The notes beneath the pieces were generated by a model. The model was not told the DNA's origin, did not search any database, and worked only from the letters and a program-made list of their open reading frames with translations. 29,235 nt of DNA from a virus: positions 1 to 29,235 of the IMG/VR virus record IMGVR_UViG_3300030339_000187, one strand, 5' to 3'. The position numbers and the translations under genes were made by a program. This document shows, piece after piece, positions 6,420-28,651 of the stretch. Position 1 is the stretch's first letter. Each line of letters begins with the position of its first letter.

Positions 6420-6760
6420 TCGATCACCTTCCTCGCGCTGTCCCAGCCATGTGCGACCGTAGCATAATTTCCTTGCGCATTTAACTCTTCTCTCCACCAA
6501 ATTTGTTCCGGAGACTCTTCTCCATCCTCTGTTTTCATTTCGATGTAGAGGCTGTGATATTTTCCACGAGCGACCGGAAGGTGAAGGTCTGGGACTCCTT
6601 TTTTAAGCCCTTGCTGTTGTAAGTGCTTCGCCTCGATTGGGTCACGCTTGCCGCCGTTGGGAATGTGGTGTAAAAGCTTTAATTCGGGGTACTGCTGGCG
6701 GACGGGAACGGACAGCGCCCATTTGAAGAGGGCGGACTGGTGTTGGGATTCGGTGGCCAT
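6395..6760 (-). CDS. VRR-NUC domain nuclease
   Basis: 121 residues, one VRR-NUC domain (PD-(D/E)XK fold). Visible motifs: N-terminal ESQHQSALFKWA, PNGGKR, then GVPDLHLP (metal-binding Asp) and YIEMKTEDG (catalytic E-x-K). Stand-alone VRR-NUC proteins are common in phage replication regions and are thought to act on branched or flapped DNA. Start ATG overlaps the upstream stop (TAATG) with GGAGGG upstream. Confidence 0.85.
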   Translation of the reverse strand: MATESQHQSALFKWALSVPVRQQYPELKLLHHIPNGGKRDPIEAKHLQQQGLKKGVPDLHLPVARGKYHSLYIEMKTEDGEESPEQIWWREELNAQGNYATVAHGWDSARKVIEWYLTLPK

Positions 6761-7650
6761 TATCCAACCCTCCAGTCGTAATCTTCAAATTTGTCAACCG
6801 AATTGAAAATAATCCGATTATTTACCCATCTTTGCAATAACCTTGTTTCCCTTGGTGCCGTTTCTTTGTTGAAAACCATCACATACGGGTCAACCCCAAT
6901 TTCCTTCAGCTTATAAATCCGGTATAAATCTTGCTCGTGTGTGCTGTTAAAATTAGTGAGCACATATGCACATGGCCGTCTATGCTTTGACATTTTGGTG
7001 TGTTTTACAAAGAAGCTAAATTGCTGGCTTAAATCCTCATTTGGGTTATCCCAGGCAAAGTGAACGGATTTTATTTTGATGGAGTTTAAAAAGCTGATGT
7101 TGTCTGGTGTCACGAACCGAATATCAAGCCCCTGAGTGAAGTCCACCCATGCCCGGCTGTCAGAAAGCTGTTTCAAAAAAATCTCATGGTCTCTACTAGC
7201 TAAAAGGTTTGGGTCGAGCAATTTGATATTCTTTTCTCCGCTCCAAAATTCGTCTAGGTCTGAAACCCCGTGGCTAAACCGCCCCTCTTTTTGGCTTACA
7301 ACGCAGAATTTACAGCCTCGTGGGCATCCACGGGTGAGAAAGCCATAAGCGGTATTTTTGAATTGAGGGAATAAGGAGTAGTCGGGTCGGCTGTGTTCGA
7401 TTTCATACGGGCATCTTGATGTCAAGTCCCCGTATCCGGTACCGCTCTTTATGACCTGATCGGCATTGATGATTGCCCGATCATCTGCATCTGGAGTGAA
7501 ATCAAAGGTTTTTGAACAGTAAACAAGGTCGTATGTGTTAAGATGGTTAAGCATTTCAACCCTGTCACCTCGTTCTTGGTGGTACGCGGACAGCTTCATG
7601 AGCACTAAATTAGGGAAGTTATGCGAATCGCTCCATAATCCTATTTTCAT
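6760..7650 (-). CDS. Phage radical SAM protein
   Basis: 296 residues. Residues 1-65 look like a B12-binding-type Rossmann module (MKIGLWSDSHNFPNLVLMKL, then YDLVYCSKTFDFT). The radical SAM core follows with Cys109, Cys113 and Cys116 in TRGCPRGCKFCVV, the CxxxCxxC site for a 4Fe-4S cluster and S-adenosylmethionine. Similar proteins occur in phages of anaerobes; the substrate is unknown. It lies between the helicase and the VRR-NUC nuclease with four-base overlaps, so a nucleic-acid substrate or a replication-linked role is plausible. Not the peptide-type maturase found in the tail region: no SPASM cysteines here. Confidence 0.8.
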   Translation of the reverse strand: MKIGLWSDSHNFPNLVLMKLSAYHQERGDRVEMLNHLNTYDLVYCSKTFDFTPDADDRAIINADQVIKSGTGYGDLTSRCPYEIEHSRPDYSLFPQFKNTAYGFLTRGCPRGCKFCVVSQKEGRFSHGVSDLDEFWSGEKNIKLLDPNLLASRDHEIFLKQLSDSRAWVDFTQGLDIRFVTPDNISFLNSIKIKSVHFAWDNPNEDLSQQFSFFVKHTKMSKHRRPCAYVLTNFNSTHEQDLYRIYKLKEIGVDPYVMVFNKETAPRETRLLQRWVNNRIIFNSVDKFEDYDWRVG

Positions 7651-21575: not shown

Positions 21576-22844
21576 ATGGCAAGGAAGCAGAACAAACGGC
21601 GCGACGACGGACGAATTCCTGTACAGGTATATCTAGGTAGAAAAAATGGAATTCGGAAGTATAAAACCGTGTACGGTCAGACACAAAAAGAGGCCGATGA
21701 AAACGCCCAAAAAGTCAAAAACAGTTTATCAAAGGGTATTGATGTTGTTGCCGATCAAGACACATTTGGCAAATGGTCTGAGCGGTTTAATACCATGAAA
21801 AAGGCTGACGGACTTTCTACTTCTCAAATAAAATCATATAAAAATTATTGTAGAATACTTTCCAACCTTGATAACATCCAAATATCAAAAATCCGTCCTG
21901 GTCTAATACAGGATATTATCAATGATATCGCTGAGTGTAACCCCCACACGGGCAGGCCTACGGCCAAAAAAACACTTATTGCATTAAAAGGCACTGCGGA
22001 GCAGGTTTTTCAGCTAGCCGTTGATTCTCGGGTGATTGAGTACAACCCTGCCGCTTCCGTCAAAATACCAAAAGGCGCTCCGCAGTCTAGGCGTAGGGCA
22101 CTCACTGACGAGGAGCAGCAATGGATAATTGACACATACCACCGGGCGCAATTGCCCGCCATGCTGATGATGTATTCCGGTCTTAGGCGTGGGGAAGTCA
22201 TAGCCCTTACTTGGGATGATATAGACCTAAAAAATAAAACTATCCGGGTAAACAAAGCTGTTGAAATGATCGGCGGAAAGCCAAAAGTAAAGCCCCCAAA
22301 AACTCATGCAGGAAATCGCACTATTGATATGCCGCAGCGGCTTATAAATTTTCTTTCCCCGATAAGAGATGCCGATTTTGCAAAGTTCGCGGATGCAACA
22401 CCCATTAACTTACTTGTTTGCCGCTCAGCATCTGGCAAGATGCTGACTAATCAAGCATGGAAAACGATGTGGCAAAGCTACCTAACAGATCTCAATGTAA
22501 AATATGGCTACATTGGGAAGGTTAATAAGCTGGCTTCGCGCAAGAAGAACACGGACGGCACCGCACAGGGCAAGCTGATACTGGTTATCCCGAATATCAC
22601 CCCGCACTGGCTCCGGCATACTTTTGCAACTCTTCTATATCTCGCCGGGGTGGATATCCTCACCGCGCGCGACCAGCTGGGCCACACAGATATTAAAACA
22701 ACACTCGCCATATACACTCACCTTGATAAGATATACAAGCGAAAATCCATGAATAAACTTGACAGTTATCTAGACCCGAAAGTGGAATCTGATAGTGGAT
22801 GCAAGTCAGATGCAAGTCAAAGCGATTTTCAAATGCAGTCGTAG
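21576..22844 (+). CDS. int: Tyrosine integrase
   Basis: 422 residues. N-terminal AP2-like arm-binding domain (RRDDGRIPVQVYLGRKNGIR), a SAM-like core-binding domain (about 60-165) and the catalytic domain with Arg204 (SGLRRGE), Lys242, His344-x-x-Arg347 (HWLRH), His370 (LGHTD) and nucleophile Tyr380 (AIYTH): a complete set. Its gene ends next to attP. The last codons (about residues 408-415) include two copies of the arm-type repeat ATGCAAGTCA, so attP overlaps the coding region. ATG preceded by AGGAGG. It should recombine attP with a tRNA-Met gene of the host. Confidence 0.95.
   Translation: MARKQNKRRDDGRIPVQVYLGRKNGIRKYKTVYGQTQKEADENAQKVKNSLSKGIDVVADQDTFGKWSERFNTMKKADGLSTSQIKSYKNYCRILSNLDNIQISKIRPGLIQDIINDIAECNPHTGRPTAKKTLIALKGTAEQVFQLAVDSRVIEYNPAASVKIPKGAPQSRRRALTDEEQQWIIDTYHRAQLPAMLMMYSGLRRGEVIALTWDDIDLKNKTIRVNKAVEMIGGKPKVKPPKTHAGNRTIDMPQRLINFLSPIRDADFAKFADATPINLLVCRSASGKMLTNQAWKTMWQSYLTDLNVKYGYIGKVNKLASRKKNTDGTAQGKLILVIPNITPHWLRHTFATLLYLAGVDILTARDQLGHTDIKTTLAIYTHLDKIYKRKSMNKLDSYLDPKVESDSGCKSDASQSDFQMQS
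22799..22819 (+). repeat. Left arm-type integrase sites (2 copies)
   Basis: ATGCAAGTCA at 22799-22808 and 22810-22819, direct, 11-base period, within the 3' end of the integrase gene. Together with the two right copies they flank the attP core symmetrically. Confidence 0.8.
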
Positions 22845-22867: not shown

Positions 22868-22917
22868 ACCGGCTCATAACCGGTTGGTCCCGGGTTCAAG
22901 TCCCTGAAGGCCCACCA
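22868..22917 (+). other. attP: attP core: 3' half of a tRNA-Met (CAT) gene
   Basis: The sequence contains the anticodon stem ACCGG, loop CTCATAA (anticodon CAT), CCGGT, the T-arm with TTCAAGT loop (one mismatched stem pair) and acceptor end AAGGCCC-A-CCA. The matching 5' part (D-arm and acceptor strand) is absent, so it is not a complete tRNA gene but the identity segment for integration. After integration the host tRNA would be rebuilt with this 3' half. The elongator Met label relies on the anticodon; a lysidine-modified Ile tRNA cannot be excluded. Confidence 0.85.
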
Positions 22918-23348: not shown

Positions 23349-23636
23349 CTATTCATCCTTGCCGGACTGTTTAAAAATCTGATTAGCAAACACGCTTGCC
23401 CCCGCGCAAAGCACCCCCTGCGTGATGGCGGCAAACAGCCCCGCTGTGAGGTTTTTAATGCCGTACACATCAGTGGTGGATATAACCCACAGAATCGCAA
23501 GGGCTACGCCAGCCGCCCCCAGCAGGGTGGGAATAAACTTGTCGGGGAAAGCGGAGCGTTTCAGCCCAAGGCCGATCAAATAAAGCACTGGGATAAGGAT
23601 AAGCAGTTCGGGTTTGATGTAAGCAGAAAAATCCAT
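23349..23636 (-). CDS. Phage holin (Hol44-like)
   Basis: 95 residues from the ATG at 23636. About three hydrophobic segments (residues 12-26 LLILIPVLYLIGLGL; 36-53 IPTLLGAAGVALAILWVI; 66-84) and a short charged tail (FKQSGKDE) fit small holins found with Amidase_3 endolysins. It would form the membrane lesions that release the endolysin. The neighbours on both sides support this. A TTG six codons upstream is an alternative start. Confidence 0.8.
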   Translation of the reverse strand: MDFSAYIKPELLILIPVLYLIGLGLKRSAFPDKFIPTLLGAAGVALAILWVISTTDVYGIKNLTAGLFAAITQGVLCAGASVFANQIFKQSGKDE

Positions 23637-23672
23637 AAGTACACAACCTTTCAATTATTTATGGGACCATAT

Positions 23673-24347
23673 TTAATAAGTCAGCGTACCGGTCAGACCG
23701 GTAGTCTTAACTTTTGCAAGCGCGGCCTCCGCTTCGGCCTTGGTACCGTTTCCCTTGACGGTGATGGTATAGTTGACCTTGGGCACAGACACGCCATAGG
23801 CCGTTGCAACACCTGCCGCGATAACCTTGGCCCAATTTTTCAACTCGGCATCGGTATCGAAGTCCAAAGCATCCGATGAGTCCACAAATCCGAGTTCCAA
23901 TAAGATTGAGGTGATACCGCGAATTCTCGGCTCATAGAGCATACCGTAAAACTCGCGGGTATTGTCACTATTGGGCAGATATTTAATGCCTCTGGTCTGT
24001 TGGCCCGCACTGACTACCGCCGCCAATACATCAGTGGCAAGCTTTTTGCTGTTTGCCACAAGGTACTTGTCGCCATAAAACTGCGGGTAAACCTCGACGC
24101 CATCTCCACCCCCAGCATTGAAATGCAAAGACAAATAACCGATACAACCGGCAGCTTTAGCCCGCTGTGCCCTTACATCAAGTTCTGGTTTCTCATTTTG
24201 TGAACGGGTAAGCATGGTGTCAATGCCATAAGCCTTTAGTTCGGGTGCTAGATAATTGGCAAGTTTCCAGTTTTGTCGGGCTTCGTCGATAGAACCGTTA
24301 GCGCCTGTTCCGTCACCACTATGACCGGGGTCTAGTGCGATTTTCAT
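23673..24347 (-). CDS. N-acetylmuramoyl-L-alanine amidase endolysin
   Basis: 224 residues. Amidase_3 domain over residues 1-180: zinc ligands His9 (DPGHSG), Glu22 and His75 (LSLHFNAG), and catalytic Glu151 (LLELGFVD) are all present. The last 40 residues (VNYTITVKGNGTKAEAEAAL through GTLTY) resemble a SPOR-like or similar wall-binding motif. It cleaves peptidoglycan stem peptides from the sugar chain for host lysis; no signal peptide, so export relies on the holin. ATG follows GAGG. Confidence 0.92.
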   Translation of the reverse strand: MKIALDPGHSGDGTGANGSIDEARQNWKLANYLAPELKAYGIDTMLTRSQNEKPELDVRAQRAKAAGCIGYLSLHFNAGGGDGVEVYPQFYGDKYLVANSKKLATDVLAAVVSAGQQTRGIKYLPNSDNTREFYGMLYEPRIRGITSILLELGFVDSSDALDFDTDAELKNWAKVIAAGVATAYGVSVPKVNYTITVKGNGTKAEAEAALAKVKTTGLTGTLTY

Positions 24348-24366: not shown

Positions 24367-24855
24367 TTATGAATTAAAATACGAATTACAGTTACATGAC
24401 GAACTCACGGCATTGCAAGTGCAAGCAGCCTGATAGGTATTGCATCCGCACCCAGCAGTCTGGGAGTTGCATGGACAATTGACAAATCCGTCGCACGTGC
24501 AACTTGCATCAAAGTCGCAAGTGCAACCATAATTCGGAACGCACGAACACCCGCCCACACTCTCCGATTGGCATGTACAGCTGTTCGGGTTGCATGTGCA
24601 AGCCGCCGTGTATGTCTGACAGGCGCACGTTTGGGCTTTCATGGCGTTTAATGCTGTTTGATAAGCCGAAAGGTCTTTTGTCGACGATATATTAAACTGA
24701 GTATTGCTGGGGCAATGCGGCGTCGCCGGAGCCCGGTTGGTATTCATTTCTGTCATGGCTCGGTAAAACTCCTGCAGCATGGTTGCCGCAGGTGCCGTCG
24801 TATACCCACCTTTGGAGATCGCAAGCGTCCGAAGAGTCGCATAATCAAGCGCCAC
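24367..24855 (-). CDS. Cys-rich CxC-repeat protein, candidate radical SAM substrate
   Basis: 162 residues in two parts. Residues 1-76 are an ordinary, mainly helical region with a single Cys48 (DYATLRTLAISKGGYTTAPA onward; possible leader). Residues 77-156 contain ten CxC motifs at 77, 86, 93, 103, 111, 119, 127, 136, 145 and 154, spaced 7 to 10 residues, 21 Cys in all. Middle residues are mostly Thr, Ser, Ala or Gly. The GTG start lies inside the last codons of the adjacent SPASM enzyme gene (11-base overlap), so the two are translationally coupled. No signal peptide. It may be modified to thioethers or hold metal, and could be displayed on the tail. Function unknown. Confidence 0.75.
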   Translation of the reverse strand: MALDYATLRTLAISKGGYTTAPAATMLQEFYRAMTEMNTNRAPATPHCPSNTQFNISSTKDLSAYQTALNAMKAQTCACQTYTAACTCNPNSCTCQSESVGGCSCVPNYGCTCDFDASCTCDGFVNCPCNSQTAGCGCNTYQAACTCNAVSSSCNCNSYFNS

Positions 24856-26002
24856 TCTGCTCCGCCCCCTTTATTAATATTTCAGTCAGCTCGACCAAGT
24901 TTTTTTCGTTCCGCTCTACTCTGGTTTCGATACTCCCCTTTGAAAAATGCTCGTCCGCATAAACTCTAGCCGCCTCCTGCCATTTCCGCTCGACCGTGGA
25001 CAACATGCACCGGATAGGCTTACCGACCTGTTTTGCGATATCACCATTGGTATTATAGTTGTCAGCAATGCATCGATAGCATTGTGTGTTAGGGCATCCG
25101 GTGCAGGAGTTGGACGCCGAGAACATCCCCAATTTTTCTGGGTTAGTGATGCCGTTAAATACGCTCCCAAATTTCAAACTTTCATCATTAAAATAAATGG
25201 AGTGGCAAGGGTGCAAATCCCCAACGGCGGTGATAGTGCAAAAGTCGGTTCCGGCGGCGCACGATTTATTTGGCATTACCTCACAACCATGTGGATGTGG
25301 TAACAAGTTTTCAATGGGTCGATAACCGTTTACAGTCCCACGCCCCGTCATATCCTCAAAAATAGCACCAAGGTGCTTGTCGTACAACATCACATCCTCC
25401 AAACTCCACTCCTCGGTGTGTACCGGCATAAACCACATCGAAGCGTCATACTGCTGTAAATACATATAGCTGTCTAAAAGGCGAGGAAGCGTCTGCTTGT
25501 TGATGCATCCGTGAATAGATAACCTTCGGCCGAAAACATCTCTGAATGTAGTGATGTTTCTTACTGCCGCATCAAACGTGCCTTTGCCTTCTTTGTCCAC
25601 CCGATATAGATCATGTGCAGTTTTGTTTCCATCGATTGAAAGCTGACAAGTAAAAAGTGGGTTTTTAGTTGCTTGACGGTAAAGCATTAATTCGATTTTA
25701 TCCGTCAAAACAGTTGCGTTCGTGATGATATGCGGTTTAAATGGGATACCAAAAAATTCTGATAGTTTCAGCCCATAGGACAATATCTCGTTGCAAACTT
25801 TTGGGTTCAATAGTGGTTCTCCGCCAAACAGGATAACGGATACCTCTTTTCTCCCGCCCGTGGTTGCGTTTCCAAATAAGAACTCCAGCCCCTTTCTGGC
25901 CACATCAACCGTCATGGCTTTGTTTGTACGATTTTTTTCAAAACAGTAAGTACAAGCCATGTTACATGCTTCACTCACTAAAAACGATGCTGATGTAAAC
26001 AT
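24845..26002 (-). CDS. Radical SAM/SPASM maturase
   Basis: 385 residues. Radical SAM site CNMACTYC (Cys13, Cys17, Cys20), the GGEP motif (LFGGEPLL, 59-65), then a C-terminal SPASM-type domain with Cys240, 248, 255, 266, 300, 303, 308, 311 and 332 for auxiliary 4Fe-4S clusters. This layout is that of anaerobic sulfatase maturase-like and RiPP-modifying enzymes, which alter peptides or proteins. Genes lie in the order tail protein, enzyme, Cys-rich protein, amidase, all on the minus strand. AAAGGAG lies seven bases before the ATG. Substrate inferred to be the Cys-rich protein; the alternative is a tail protein. Confidence 0.88.
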   Translation of the reverse strand: MFTSASFLVSEACNMACTYCFEKNRTNKAMTVDVARKGLEFLFGNATTGGRKEVSVILFGGEPLLNPKVCNEILSYGLKLSEFFGIPFKPHIITNATVLTDKIELMLYRQATKNPLFTCQLSIDGNKTAHDLYRVDKEGKGTFDAAVRNITTFRDVFGRRLSIHGCINKQTLPRLLDSYMYLQQYDASMWFMPVHTEEWSLEDVMLYDKHLGAIFEDMTGRGTVNGYRPIENLLPHPHGCEVMPNKSCAAGTDFCTITAVGDLHPCHSIYFNDESLKFGSVFNGITNPEKLGMFSASNSCTGCPNTQCYRCIADNYNTNGDIAKQVGKPIRCMLSTVERKWQEAARVYADEHFSKGSIETRVERNEKNLVELTEILIKGAEQSGA

Positions 26003-26014
26003 TTTGTCGCTCCT

Positions 26015-26266
26015 TTATTTGCTTAAAATATAGTCAAAATTGCCTATAAATGAGCCGGTATTGTATACTGTGAAATTGGTGGTTGTCTTGGCCACATAAA
26101 TATACCCCAGCGTTCCGCCGGGATCTGCTGTGGGTATAATCGCCACGGAAAACGAGGTGCTACCAACTGAGTGTGTAATAGCGCGACCTGTAGTTCCATT
26201 AAATGTAGAGGAACCAATTACAGCAGCTGATCCGCCACTACCGGCGGGGGATATTACAAGTCCCAT
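26015..26266 (-). CDS. Small tail-fibre-associated beta-rich protein
   Basis: 83 residues, Gly/Ser/Thr-rich and beta-strand rich. The pattern FNGTTGRAITHSVGSTSFSV followed by IIPTADPGGTLGYIYVAKTT and FTVYNTGS is found at fibre tips and appendages of phage tail proteins. GGGGGAT before the ATG. Between the fibre protein and the radical SAM enzyme; a possible receptor-binding or fibre-cap piece. Confidence 0.65.
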   Translation of the reverse strand: MGLVISPAGSGGSAAVIGSSTFNGTTGRAITHSVGSTSFSVAIIPTADPGGTLGYIYVAKTTTNFTVYNTGSFIGNFDYILSK

Positions 26267-27280: not shown

Positions 27281-28090
27281 TCATCCTAAAGCAATAGCCA
27301 TTGCAATCGCTTTATTTGCTGCATCTTGAGCAGAAATCCCGCTTGCTGTCACCCATTTACCAAGAACCGAGTTATAGGTTACCGGTAAAAAAGCCCCGGT
27401 TTTGGCCCCGGTCTTAATATTGACTCCATCCTGCGTTATGATGTTTTTAGCGGTCCCGCCAGTCGCGGTAATAGTCGCACTGTCCGCAATATCCGAAATA
27501 AGTTTAAGGTTCACCTGATATCCATCGACAATGTCTGCTGCCGGAATGGCTATTGTAATTGCCGAAGCCGTGCCGCCTGCTGTCACCGGTTTGTTGTGGA
27601 CTGTTTTGTCAGCCATATGGGCCACAAAATTTGTATTAAGTGCGAAAGTATCACCGGATGAAATAGTAACGGAAATATTTGTGGCGCTTCCGACGGCAAC
27701 CGTGGCGAAAAGATATTTTTCAAGTCTGCTGTCCGTGAAAGGCGGGATATAGTCGCCTGCGCCACCTGCGTTCGAGTAGGCGTATAATATCTCTCCGAGA
27801 GTGGGATCGGTGGCGAATAAGCCCCATTCTCTCCACCAAAAACCGGTTGATATTAAGGTGTTGCTAAAAAAAGCCGCCAATTGATAAGCATTTGCCCCGC
27901 TAAAGCTTCCGTTTTCAGTTAACATAGTGGTTTTTTGAGATACTAAAGCATTCAGCCCGCTTATCGGCGTTCCATTTAACTCTCCGTCTCCGATCGCCAT
28001 TCGTGTAAATTGTAAAAGCTGACCACTCTGAACCTTGGCTTGCAAGGCAGTACCTTTATTTGTTAAAATCATTGCTGGAAAACTGGCCAC
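27281..28090 (-). CDS. Tail-collar fibre protein (gpH-like N-terminus)
   Basis: 269 residues. The N-terminal 150 residues (MILTNKGTALQAKVQSGQLL, FTRMAIGDGELNG, WWREWGLFA) match the phage tail-collar fibre N-terminal domain (DUF3751), which attaches the fibre to the baseplate. The C-terminal 100 residues are a Gly/Thr-rich beta domain. GTG start with AGGAGG eight bases upstream. In P2-like order after gpI. Confidence 0.85.
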   Translation of the reverse strand: MASFPAMILTNKGTALQAKVQSGQLLQFTRMAIGDGELNGTPISGLNALVSQKTTMLTENGSFSGANAYQLAAFFSNTLISTGFWWREWGLFATDPTLGEILYAYSNAGGAGDYIPPFTDSRLEKYLFATVAVGSATNISVTISSGDTFALNTNFVAHMADKTVHNKPVTAGGTASAITIAIPAADIVDGYQVNLKLISDIADSATITATGGTAKNIITQDGVNIKTGAKTGAFLPVTYNSVLGKWVTASGISAQDAANKAIAMAIALG

Positions 28091-28102: not shown

Positions 28103-28651
28103 CTAAATATAAATAATTTCGGATGTTCTAACCACCCCCGCAAATGATAGATTAAGCTGTGCAACCGCCTCAACGATAACTAATTCAAGATGCGATCTAA
28201 TGTTTTGCGTCACCTTAATCAACCTATCAAACTCAGCCACCATCTCGTCACTAGTCCCTACATTTCCAGTATGCACTTTAAACATCCCAGCAGTACCGCT
28301 GTAGTCAAACCACTCTTCAACCCAGCCGTTGCCGAACACAGTTTTTACAACCTTTTCGACCGCAGATTTTGTACCGCGCTTTCTGTGGGTAAGAAAACAG
28401 TTTTTAATCATCTCGCGCTTGGAATCGATCGGTAGAATTGAATTGTATTCAATAAGATTAAACTGCCAAGCTAGTTCATCAAGCAAATCCTCCGAAAGCT
28501 CATCAATCCTCGCATATAGGTTGGCCATGTACACACCACCAGCCAGCGCACGCATTTGATTGTTCAATGCGTACACAATACCTGCAGCCGAAGGGTCGTC
28601 TCGCATCCATAGCGGAAGATGCTCAAATAGATCTGAATCTTTAATTATCAA
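28103..28651 (-). CDS. Phage tail protein I (baseplate)
   Basis: 182 residues. LFEHLPLWMRDDPSAAGIVY, then RIDELSEDLLDELAWQFNLI, SILPIDSKREMIKNCFLTHR and RKRGTKSAVEKVVKTVFGNG are standard features of P2 gpI-type baseplate proteins. With gpJ upstream it forms the baseplate wedge of a contractile tail. TTG start at 28651 with AAGGTGG upstream. Confidence 0.85.
   Translation of the reverse strand: MIIKDSDLFEHLPLWMRDDPSAAGIVYALNNQMRALAGGVYMANLYARIDELSEDLLDELAWQFNLIEYNSILPIDSKREMIKNCFLTHRKRGTKSAVEKVVKTVFGNGWVEEWFDYSGTAGMFKVHTGNVGTSDEMVAEFDRLIKVTQNIRSHLELVIVEAVAQLNLSFAGVVRTSEIIYI

Follow-up and report, generated by a model that had tools for sequence, protein, structure and literature searches.

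A radical SAM/SPASM enzyme gene overlapping a Cys-x-Cys array gene in a temperate phage, a candidate protein-modification pair with relatives among tailed phages

Bacterial peptide systems are the main setting in which radical SAM peptide maturases are known. The SCIFF system has as its target a small six-Cys peptide of Clostridia, and the CXXX-repeat system curated in NCBIfam consists of a radical SAM/SPASM enzyme (TIGR04115) adjoining a large Cys-repeat protein (targets TIGR04114 and TIGR04117). In the ranthipeptide system the target, PapA, is a short precursor that contains the C-X3-D/E motif six times, and the enzyme PapB cross-links Cys-X(0-6)-Asp and also accepts Glu (PMC9413430). Among phages, Timms et al. 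(2010) described as highly unusual the 11-12 radical SAM proteins of the T4-like Campylobacter phages CP220 and CPt10, and they noted no intragenic repeat other than one of 21 bp in CPT_0180 (PMC2853527). Carvalho et al. (2012) proposed cofactor chemistry or DNA protection for the radical SAM proteins of Campylobacter phages (PMC3322345). In the parts of these two reports drawn on here, the radical SAM genes and the repeat protein are left unlinked (PMC2853527, PMC3322345). Searches of one collection of open-access papers for phage radical SAM genes together with Cys-rich proteins, RiPPs or CXXX repeats yielded no description of such a pairing.

The overlapping gene pair and its neighbourhood

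The window, by which we mean the whole stretch of DNA analysed, is an IMG/VR virus record of 29,235 bp that may be a fragment. It contains an integrase-like and a repressor-like ORF, and the phage is temperate. The features that concern the pair are as follows.

28103..28651, minus strand: phage tail protein I (PF09684), upstream of the pair
27281..28090, minus strand: tail-collar fibre protein (PF12571, phrog_7037), upstream of the pair
26015..26266, minus strand: 83-aa protein without a family match in Pfam, NCBIfam or PHROG profiles, between the fibre genes and the enzyme gene
24845..26002, minus strand: radical SAM/SPASM enzyme of 385 aa, with ATG at 26002 and AAGGAG at 26010-26015
24860..24869, minus strand: GGGGGCGGAG, the likely ribosome-binding site for the CxC gene, lying within the last part of the enzyme gene
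24367..24855, minus strand: CxC-array protein of 162 aa, the presumed substrate, with its GTG start at 24855 inside the enzyme gene
24628..24855, minus strand: N-terminal domain of the CxC protein (residues 1-76), homologous to the N-termini of the CxC proteins of loci L212 and L249
24388..24627, minus strand: array of ten C-x-C units (residues 77-156), nine of them followed by N, D or Q
23673..24347, minus strand: Amidase_3 endolysin (PF01520, phrog_435), downstream of the pair
23349..23654, minus strand: holin, downstream of the pair and beyond the endolysin

The enzyme gene and the CxC gene overlap by 11 bp, and a GGAG stands 4 nt ahead of the GTG of the CxC protein; we infer that translation of the CxC gene is coupled to that of the enzyme gene. 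An earlier note on this DNA had described both reading frames, the overlap, the GTG start, the ten CxC units and the CxxxCxxC and SPASM cysteines of the enzyme, and all of these were confirmed. It had also placed the pair between tail-fibre genes and the endolysin, which the Pfam and PHROG matches of the neighbours bear out, as the same strand encodes a virion-like protein, tail protein I and the tail-collar fibre upstream and the amidase endolysin and holin downstream. Elsewhere in the window, a tRNA-Met-like 3' end with CCA (22870-22917) directly follows the integrase-like ORF (21576-22844) and is probably the phage attachment site. A second radical SAM-like Cys motif (CPRGCKFC) is encoded among the early genes at 6760-7650 on the minus strand, in a protein that scores below the Pfam cut-off and has no Cys-rich protein adjoining it.

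The CxxxCxxC of the enzyme reads CNMACTYC (residues 13-20), and seven C-terminal SPASM-type cysteines, at 248, 266, 300, 303, 308, 311 and a last one near residue 332, align with those of its relatives. PF04055 (Radical_SAM) matched the enzyme at 34.7 bits, above its cut-off of 29.5, and PF13186 (SPASM) gave 14.6 bits versus a cut-off of 21.5, with the SPASM Cys pattern present and kept in relatives. The top NCBIfam match was PapB (NF047865), at 162.4 bits versus a cut-off of 340, and this was followed by the SCIFF maturase (TIGR03974; 115.8 bits versus 425), while the CXXX-repeat maturase TIGR04115 reached 92.2 bits versus 350. Profile comparison gave 5wgg, which we take to be the SCIFF maturase CteB, as the closest solved structure. 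Judged from its sequence, the enzyme is a radical SAM protein of the peptide- or protein-maturase type that lies outside every curated family. Since it scored well under every curated maturase cut-off, its chemistry cannot be read from family membership.

The presumed substrate has 21 cysteines in 162 aa, and 20 of them make up ten non-overlapping CxC units, placed at residues 77-154, with start-to-start spacings of 9, 7, 10, 8, 8, 8, 9, 9 and 9. Shuffling the protein 20,000 times produced a mean of 2.3 and a maximum of seven CxC, versus the ten in the real sequence. The cysteine codons are mixed (15 TGC and six TGT), which, with the varying spacing, argues against the array being a recent tandem duplication of DNA. 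The N-terminal domain aligned with those of L212 and L249 by hhalign (91 %, E 1e-6) and with that of L212 by BLASTP (E 3e-5), and no kinship was detectable between it and the N-terminal domain of the S74-bearing group of aquatic and gut proteins. Pfam gave no match to the CxC protein, PF13884 (Peptidase_S74) being absent at its C-terminus, and nor did NCBIfam, TIGR04114 included, the repeats being CxC. A direct search of viral contigs and INPHARED with this divergent, low-complexity protein found nothing, and no RiPP recognition domain was seen. Its AlphaFold2 model was uninformative (pLDDT 39).

Compared with the described systems, the pair is most readily set beside the CXXX-repeat system, with which it shares the placing of a radical SAM/SPASM enzyme beside a large Cys-repeat protein; it differs in that its target is CxC rather than CxxxC and has no TIGR04114 match, and in that its enzyme belongs to a CxC clade. 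The earlier note's remark that the pair fits no RiPP class that it could name was not fully accurate, as NCBIfam does hold the TIGR04115/TIGR04114 pair, with relatives from gut phages, whereas the window represents a different, CxC, branch. On these profile and motif comparisons, the pair appears to work like the CXXX-repeat radical SAM system, yet it scores outside that family and is a variant of it on the CxC branch. With PapA it has in common cysteines placed beside acidic or amide residues, and PapA bears many cross-links in one peptide, as the window protein would. Unlike that short precursor, the window target has ten CxC[N/D/Q] units in a 162-aa phage protein, and no CX3D/E unit was seen in it on inspection. 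It is also unlike the SCIFF peptide in being a phage repeat protein.

Relatives of the pair in other phages

In the tree, the window enzyme grouped with those of L212, L213 and L215 (branch values 100/99) and then with that of L207. All CxC-linked type-A enzymes, including that of the window, came together (98/92), apart from the CxxxC clade and the bacterial enzymes, and an earlier tree, built without the nearest relatives and without L004, had placed the window enzyme on the CxC side (90/82). The branches are long, so the deep order of the tree is less sure than the near one. Identity to the L212 enzyme was 36 % over 385 aligned positions and 39 % over the tree columns. The closest enzyme relatives found (up to 39 % identity), those of L212, L213 and L215 among them, come from phage contigs that also encode CxC-array proteins, such as a 313-aa protein with 19 CxC in L212 and, in the L213 record, a run of no fewer than seven CxC genes that lies about 4 kb upstream of the enzyme gene. 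Record G037 (L249, 45000-62500) encodes at least seven consecutive CxC-repeat proteins of 166-715 aa within about 9.5 kb, many of them with C-x-C-x-x-R-T units, and these genes lie upstream of two radical SAM genes.

A first enzyme scan of viral contigs returned enzymes at 25-29 % identity. A Cys-repeat protein is encoded just after the enzyme in L002, L003, L004, L005 and L010, the repeats being CxxxC in four of them and mixed CxC/CxxxC in L004. The gut-phage homologues fall in the CXXX-repeat system (TIGR04115 at 425 bits in L002 and 400 bits in L003, cut-off 350), and the L005 target matches TIGR04114. The neighbours of L005 and L037, judged from translations read without profiles, are baseplate, tail protein I-like and fibre-like, with lysis-like neighbours also in L037. 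A later profile scan using CxC-linked enzymes gave many more enzymes, and the best-scoring of these are mostly followed by a CxC protein, some of the partners holding only two to four CxC; L199, a strong enzyme match, had no evident partner in its locus. Human-faecal 'phage' records (H1-H16) were also matched by the enzyme. Five were examined (L021-L025) and resemble bacterial SCIFF-maturase loci, one of them with a SCIFF-like peptide upstream, and the set was therefore left out as phage relatives.

Other arrangements of radical SAM and Cys-rich genes were seen in passing. At L218 (3734-6128), two Cys-rich proteins with CxxC-type repeats (CDVCDSCQSC) are encoded immediately ahead of a radical SAM gene whose own product begins with Cys repeats. 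At L222 (4974-7747), a radical SAM gene overlaps the gene of a 563-aa protein starting with CxxxC repeats (CEGSCESTCESSC), possibly another enzyme/target pair. A CXXX-group enzyme at L011 (5032-7191) is preceded by a protein with C-terminal CGTCSATTTCGSSSSCSTC repeats, after fibre-like genes.

Co-occurrence was also quantified from the substrate side, using a scan of viral contigs with the DNA pattern CTC-x-CNY-CTC that was blind to the enzyme. This pattern gave 47 viral loci, and the reversed pattern, used as a control, gave none. Upstream DNA of 2 kb or more before the CxC ORF was available at 31 loci. At 27 of these a radical SAM gene precedes the CxC ORF on the same strand, in several cases with a gap of only 4-15 bp, and the same holds for 19 of the 22 CxC clusters formed at 80 % identity. 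A whole-record search of the loci without such upstream evidence found radical SAM matches in 14 of 19, weak ones in G006 and G018. A radical SAM gene is thus carried by 42 of the 47 CxC records (27 upstream, 14 by whole-record search, and L055). Four of the five exceptions (L065, L066, L069 and L089) are one related group of repeat proteins, and in L201, a relative, the enzyme gene begins 4 bp past the CxC gene; the fifth, L068, lacks a CxC ORF that reaches the required size. In a small control, none of six random viral records contained a radical SAM gene, and no Cys-repeat ORF was found in the retrieved flanks of 80 bacterial enzyme relatives. The earlier note had offered conserved co-occurrence in relatives as its own test, and the expectation held strongly in the upstream loci, in whole records and among the nearest relatives. 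The enzyme/Cys-repeat pairing is real, old and widespread in phages, and chance, bacterial contamination or an unrelated metabolic gene are poor explanations of it.

These data also bear on the idea of the Cys array as no more than a passive scaffold for metal or disulfides, with the radical SAM gene serving another purpose, such as anaerobic metabolism or tRNA or DNA chemistry. Metabolic or DNA-protection roles are indeed proposed in the parts of Timms et al. (2010) and Carvalho et al. (2012) drawn on here (PMC2853527, PMC3322345). However, the linkage to CxC genes is tight, on the same strand and repeated in unrelated phages, it is absent from the retrieved flanks of the bacterial enzyme relatives, and the enzymes sort in the tree by repeat type, all of which makes a passive scaffold very improbable.

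The Campylobacter group II phages themselves offer a counterpart to the window. CPT_0180 of CP220 is the CxC protein, and in the trees the enzyme encoded near it falls among the type-A enzymes. Phage IBB_35 also has a CxC protein (FDG52_s2gp10). As in the window, CP220 and CPt10 have a CxC protein with C-x-C-[NDQ] units and a nearby type-A enzyme, next to tail genes. Unlike in the window, the enzyme gene lies 2.3 kb downstream and does not overlap, and the protein is one of 534 aa with CDCNYCT repeats. At this locus (L183; CPT_0180 and CPT_0184), the only intragenic repeat of the genome is the one that encodes the CxC units. CPT_0180 is not among the published CP220 virion bands, of which only 11 are listed in the part of the report drawn on here (PMC2853527).

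Association with the tail and the proposed modification

Several observations connect the CxC proteins with phage tails. A Peptidase_S74 domain was found in seven of the ten related CxC proteins tested, and three S74-bearing CxC proteins match tail-fibre PHROGs. Peptidase_S74 is the chaperone domain of endosialidases and tail fibres, and many aquatic CxC proteins end in it, as do S74 tail fibres and spikes. An N-terminal domain that contains a conserved E-x-x-R-R-G stretch is common to the aquatic CxC and gut CxxxC proteins (hhalign 91 %). A model of the aquatic CxC protein of L070 (pLDDT 77) gave no significant PDB match. The window protein, by contrast, lacks S74 and its N-terminus shows no detectable kinship to that of the aquatic and gut proteins, so that its tail role rests on gene position and on the kinship of the system.

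The earlier note had left the modified protein either displayed on the tail or released at lysis. Of these two fates the tail is favoured, since related CxC proteins carry the tail-fibre chaperone domain. On the release reading, the phage would carry the pair as a lysogeny or late accessory gene for a large RiPP-like effector that is bacteriocin-like or host-directed and is set free at lysis without being part of the particle. The pair does adjoin lysis genes, its CxC protein is without an S74 domain and its enzyme is kin to RiPP maturases, each of which would suit an effector. Yet no protease, transporter or immunity-like gene adjoins the pair, the chaperone on related proteins points to tail fibres, at least seven CxC genes follow one another in a single record, and the pair is also found in lytic Campylobacter phages near tail genes. 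We therefore consider an effector improbable.

The candidate acceptor for a bond from cysteine is the residue after each CxC. This residue is N, D, Q or E in nine of the ten window units, in 7/7 of L004 and in 7/7 of CPt10 (outside its tandem array), compared to only 15 % in bacterial control-locus proteins. Among aquatic units with a middle residue other than Asn or Asp, N, D or Q follows in 96.5 %, the search pattern having fixed part of the other positions. In L212, CxC is mostly followed by Val, in units of CxCVxRT, so the N/D/Q rule is strong but not universal. The CxC-x-x-R-T units of L212 and L215 weaken Asn/Asp as a universal acceptor. By analogy, the use of Asp and Glu by PapB makes an Asp or Asn acceptor plausible.

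The explanation that we hold to be reasonably probable is that the enzyme modifies the Cys array of its tail-associated neighbour, probably by thioether cross-links. The two genes would then form a phage-encoded protein-modification pair, in which the enzyme acts on the Cys-x-Cys array and, in chemistry like that of PapB or the SCIFF maturase, most likely forms a bond between the sulfur of Cys and a carbon in a residue close by, for which the Asn, Asp or Gln after each CxC is the candidate. The product would be a rigid stretch resistant to proteases and redox change, the modified protein would be part of the phage tail or attached to it, and the N-terminal domain may serve as the handle for the enzyme, as the virion anchor, or as both.

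In most aquatic CxC loci (L050-L096), two or three distinct radical SAM genes adjoin one another, which suggests that the aquatic CxC proteins receive more than one modification each. It is conceivable, though rather unlikely, that the CxC protein is modified in some other way. The Asn, Asp or Tyr beside the Cys might, for example, undergo C-C or C-N cyclisation, epimerisation or a further kind of change, with the Cys pairs engaged in metal binding or disulfides. The linkage evidence suits any modification, and in the aquatic CTCNCNY repeats the conservation of Asn and Tyr is about equal to that of Cys. The multiple radical SAM genes of the aquatic loci, suggesting more than one reaction, also count in favour of this alternative, as does CxC being a common metal-binding layout. 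Nevertheless, the nearest named families, PapB and the SCIFF maturase, make Cys thioethers, in keeping with the thioether cross-links that we prefer.

At a broader scale, many tailed phages from the gut, from Campylobacter and from aquatic environments may use dedicated radical SAM enzymes on the CxC or CxxxC array proteins of their tail appendages. Such proteins would constitute a general, undescribed class of covalently cross-linked virion parts and would explain at least some of the Campylobacter radical SAM genes; we regard this generalization as evenly balanced between right and wrong. The conserved linkage of radical SAM enzymes with Cys-array proteins in phage tail regions suggests a part for radical chemistry in the building of phage particles. 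The linkage also leads to a direct, testable hypothesis on why Campylobacter phages, which are available as culturable isolates, carry their unexplained radical SAM genes. As substrates for enzymatic cross-linking, the array proteins are large and repetitive by nature.
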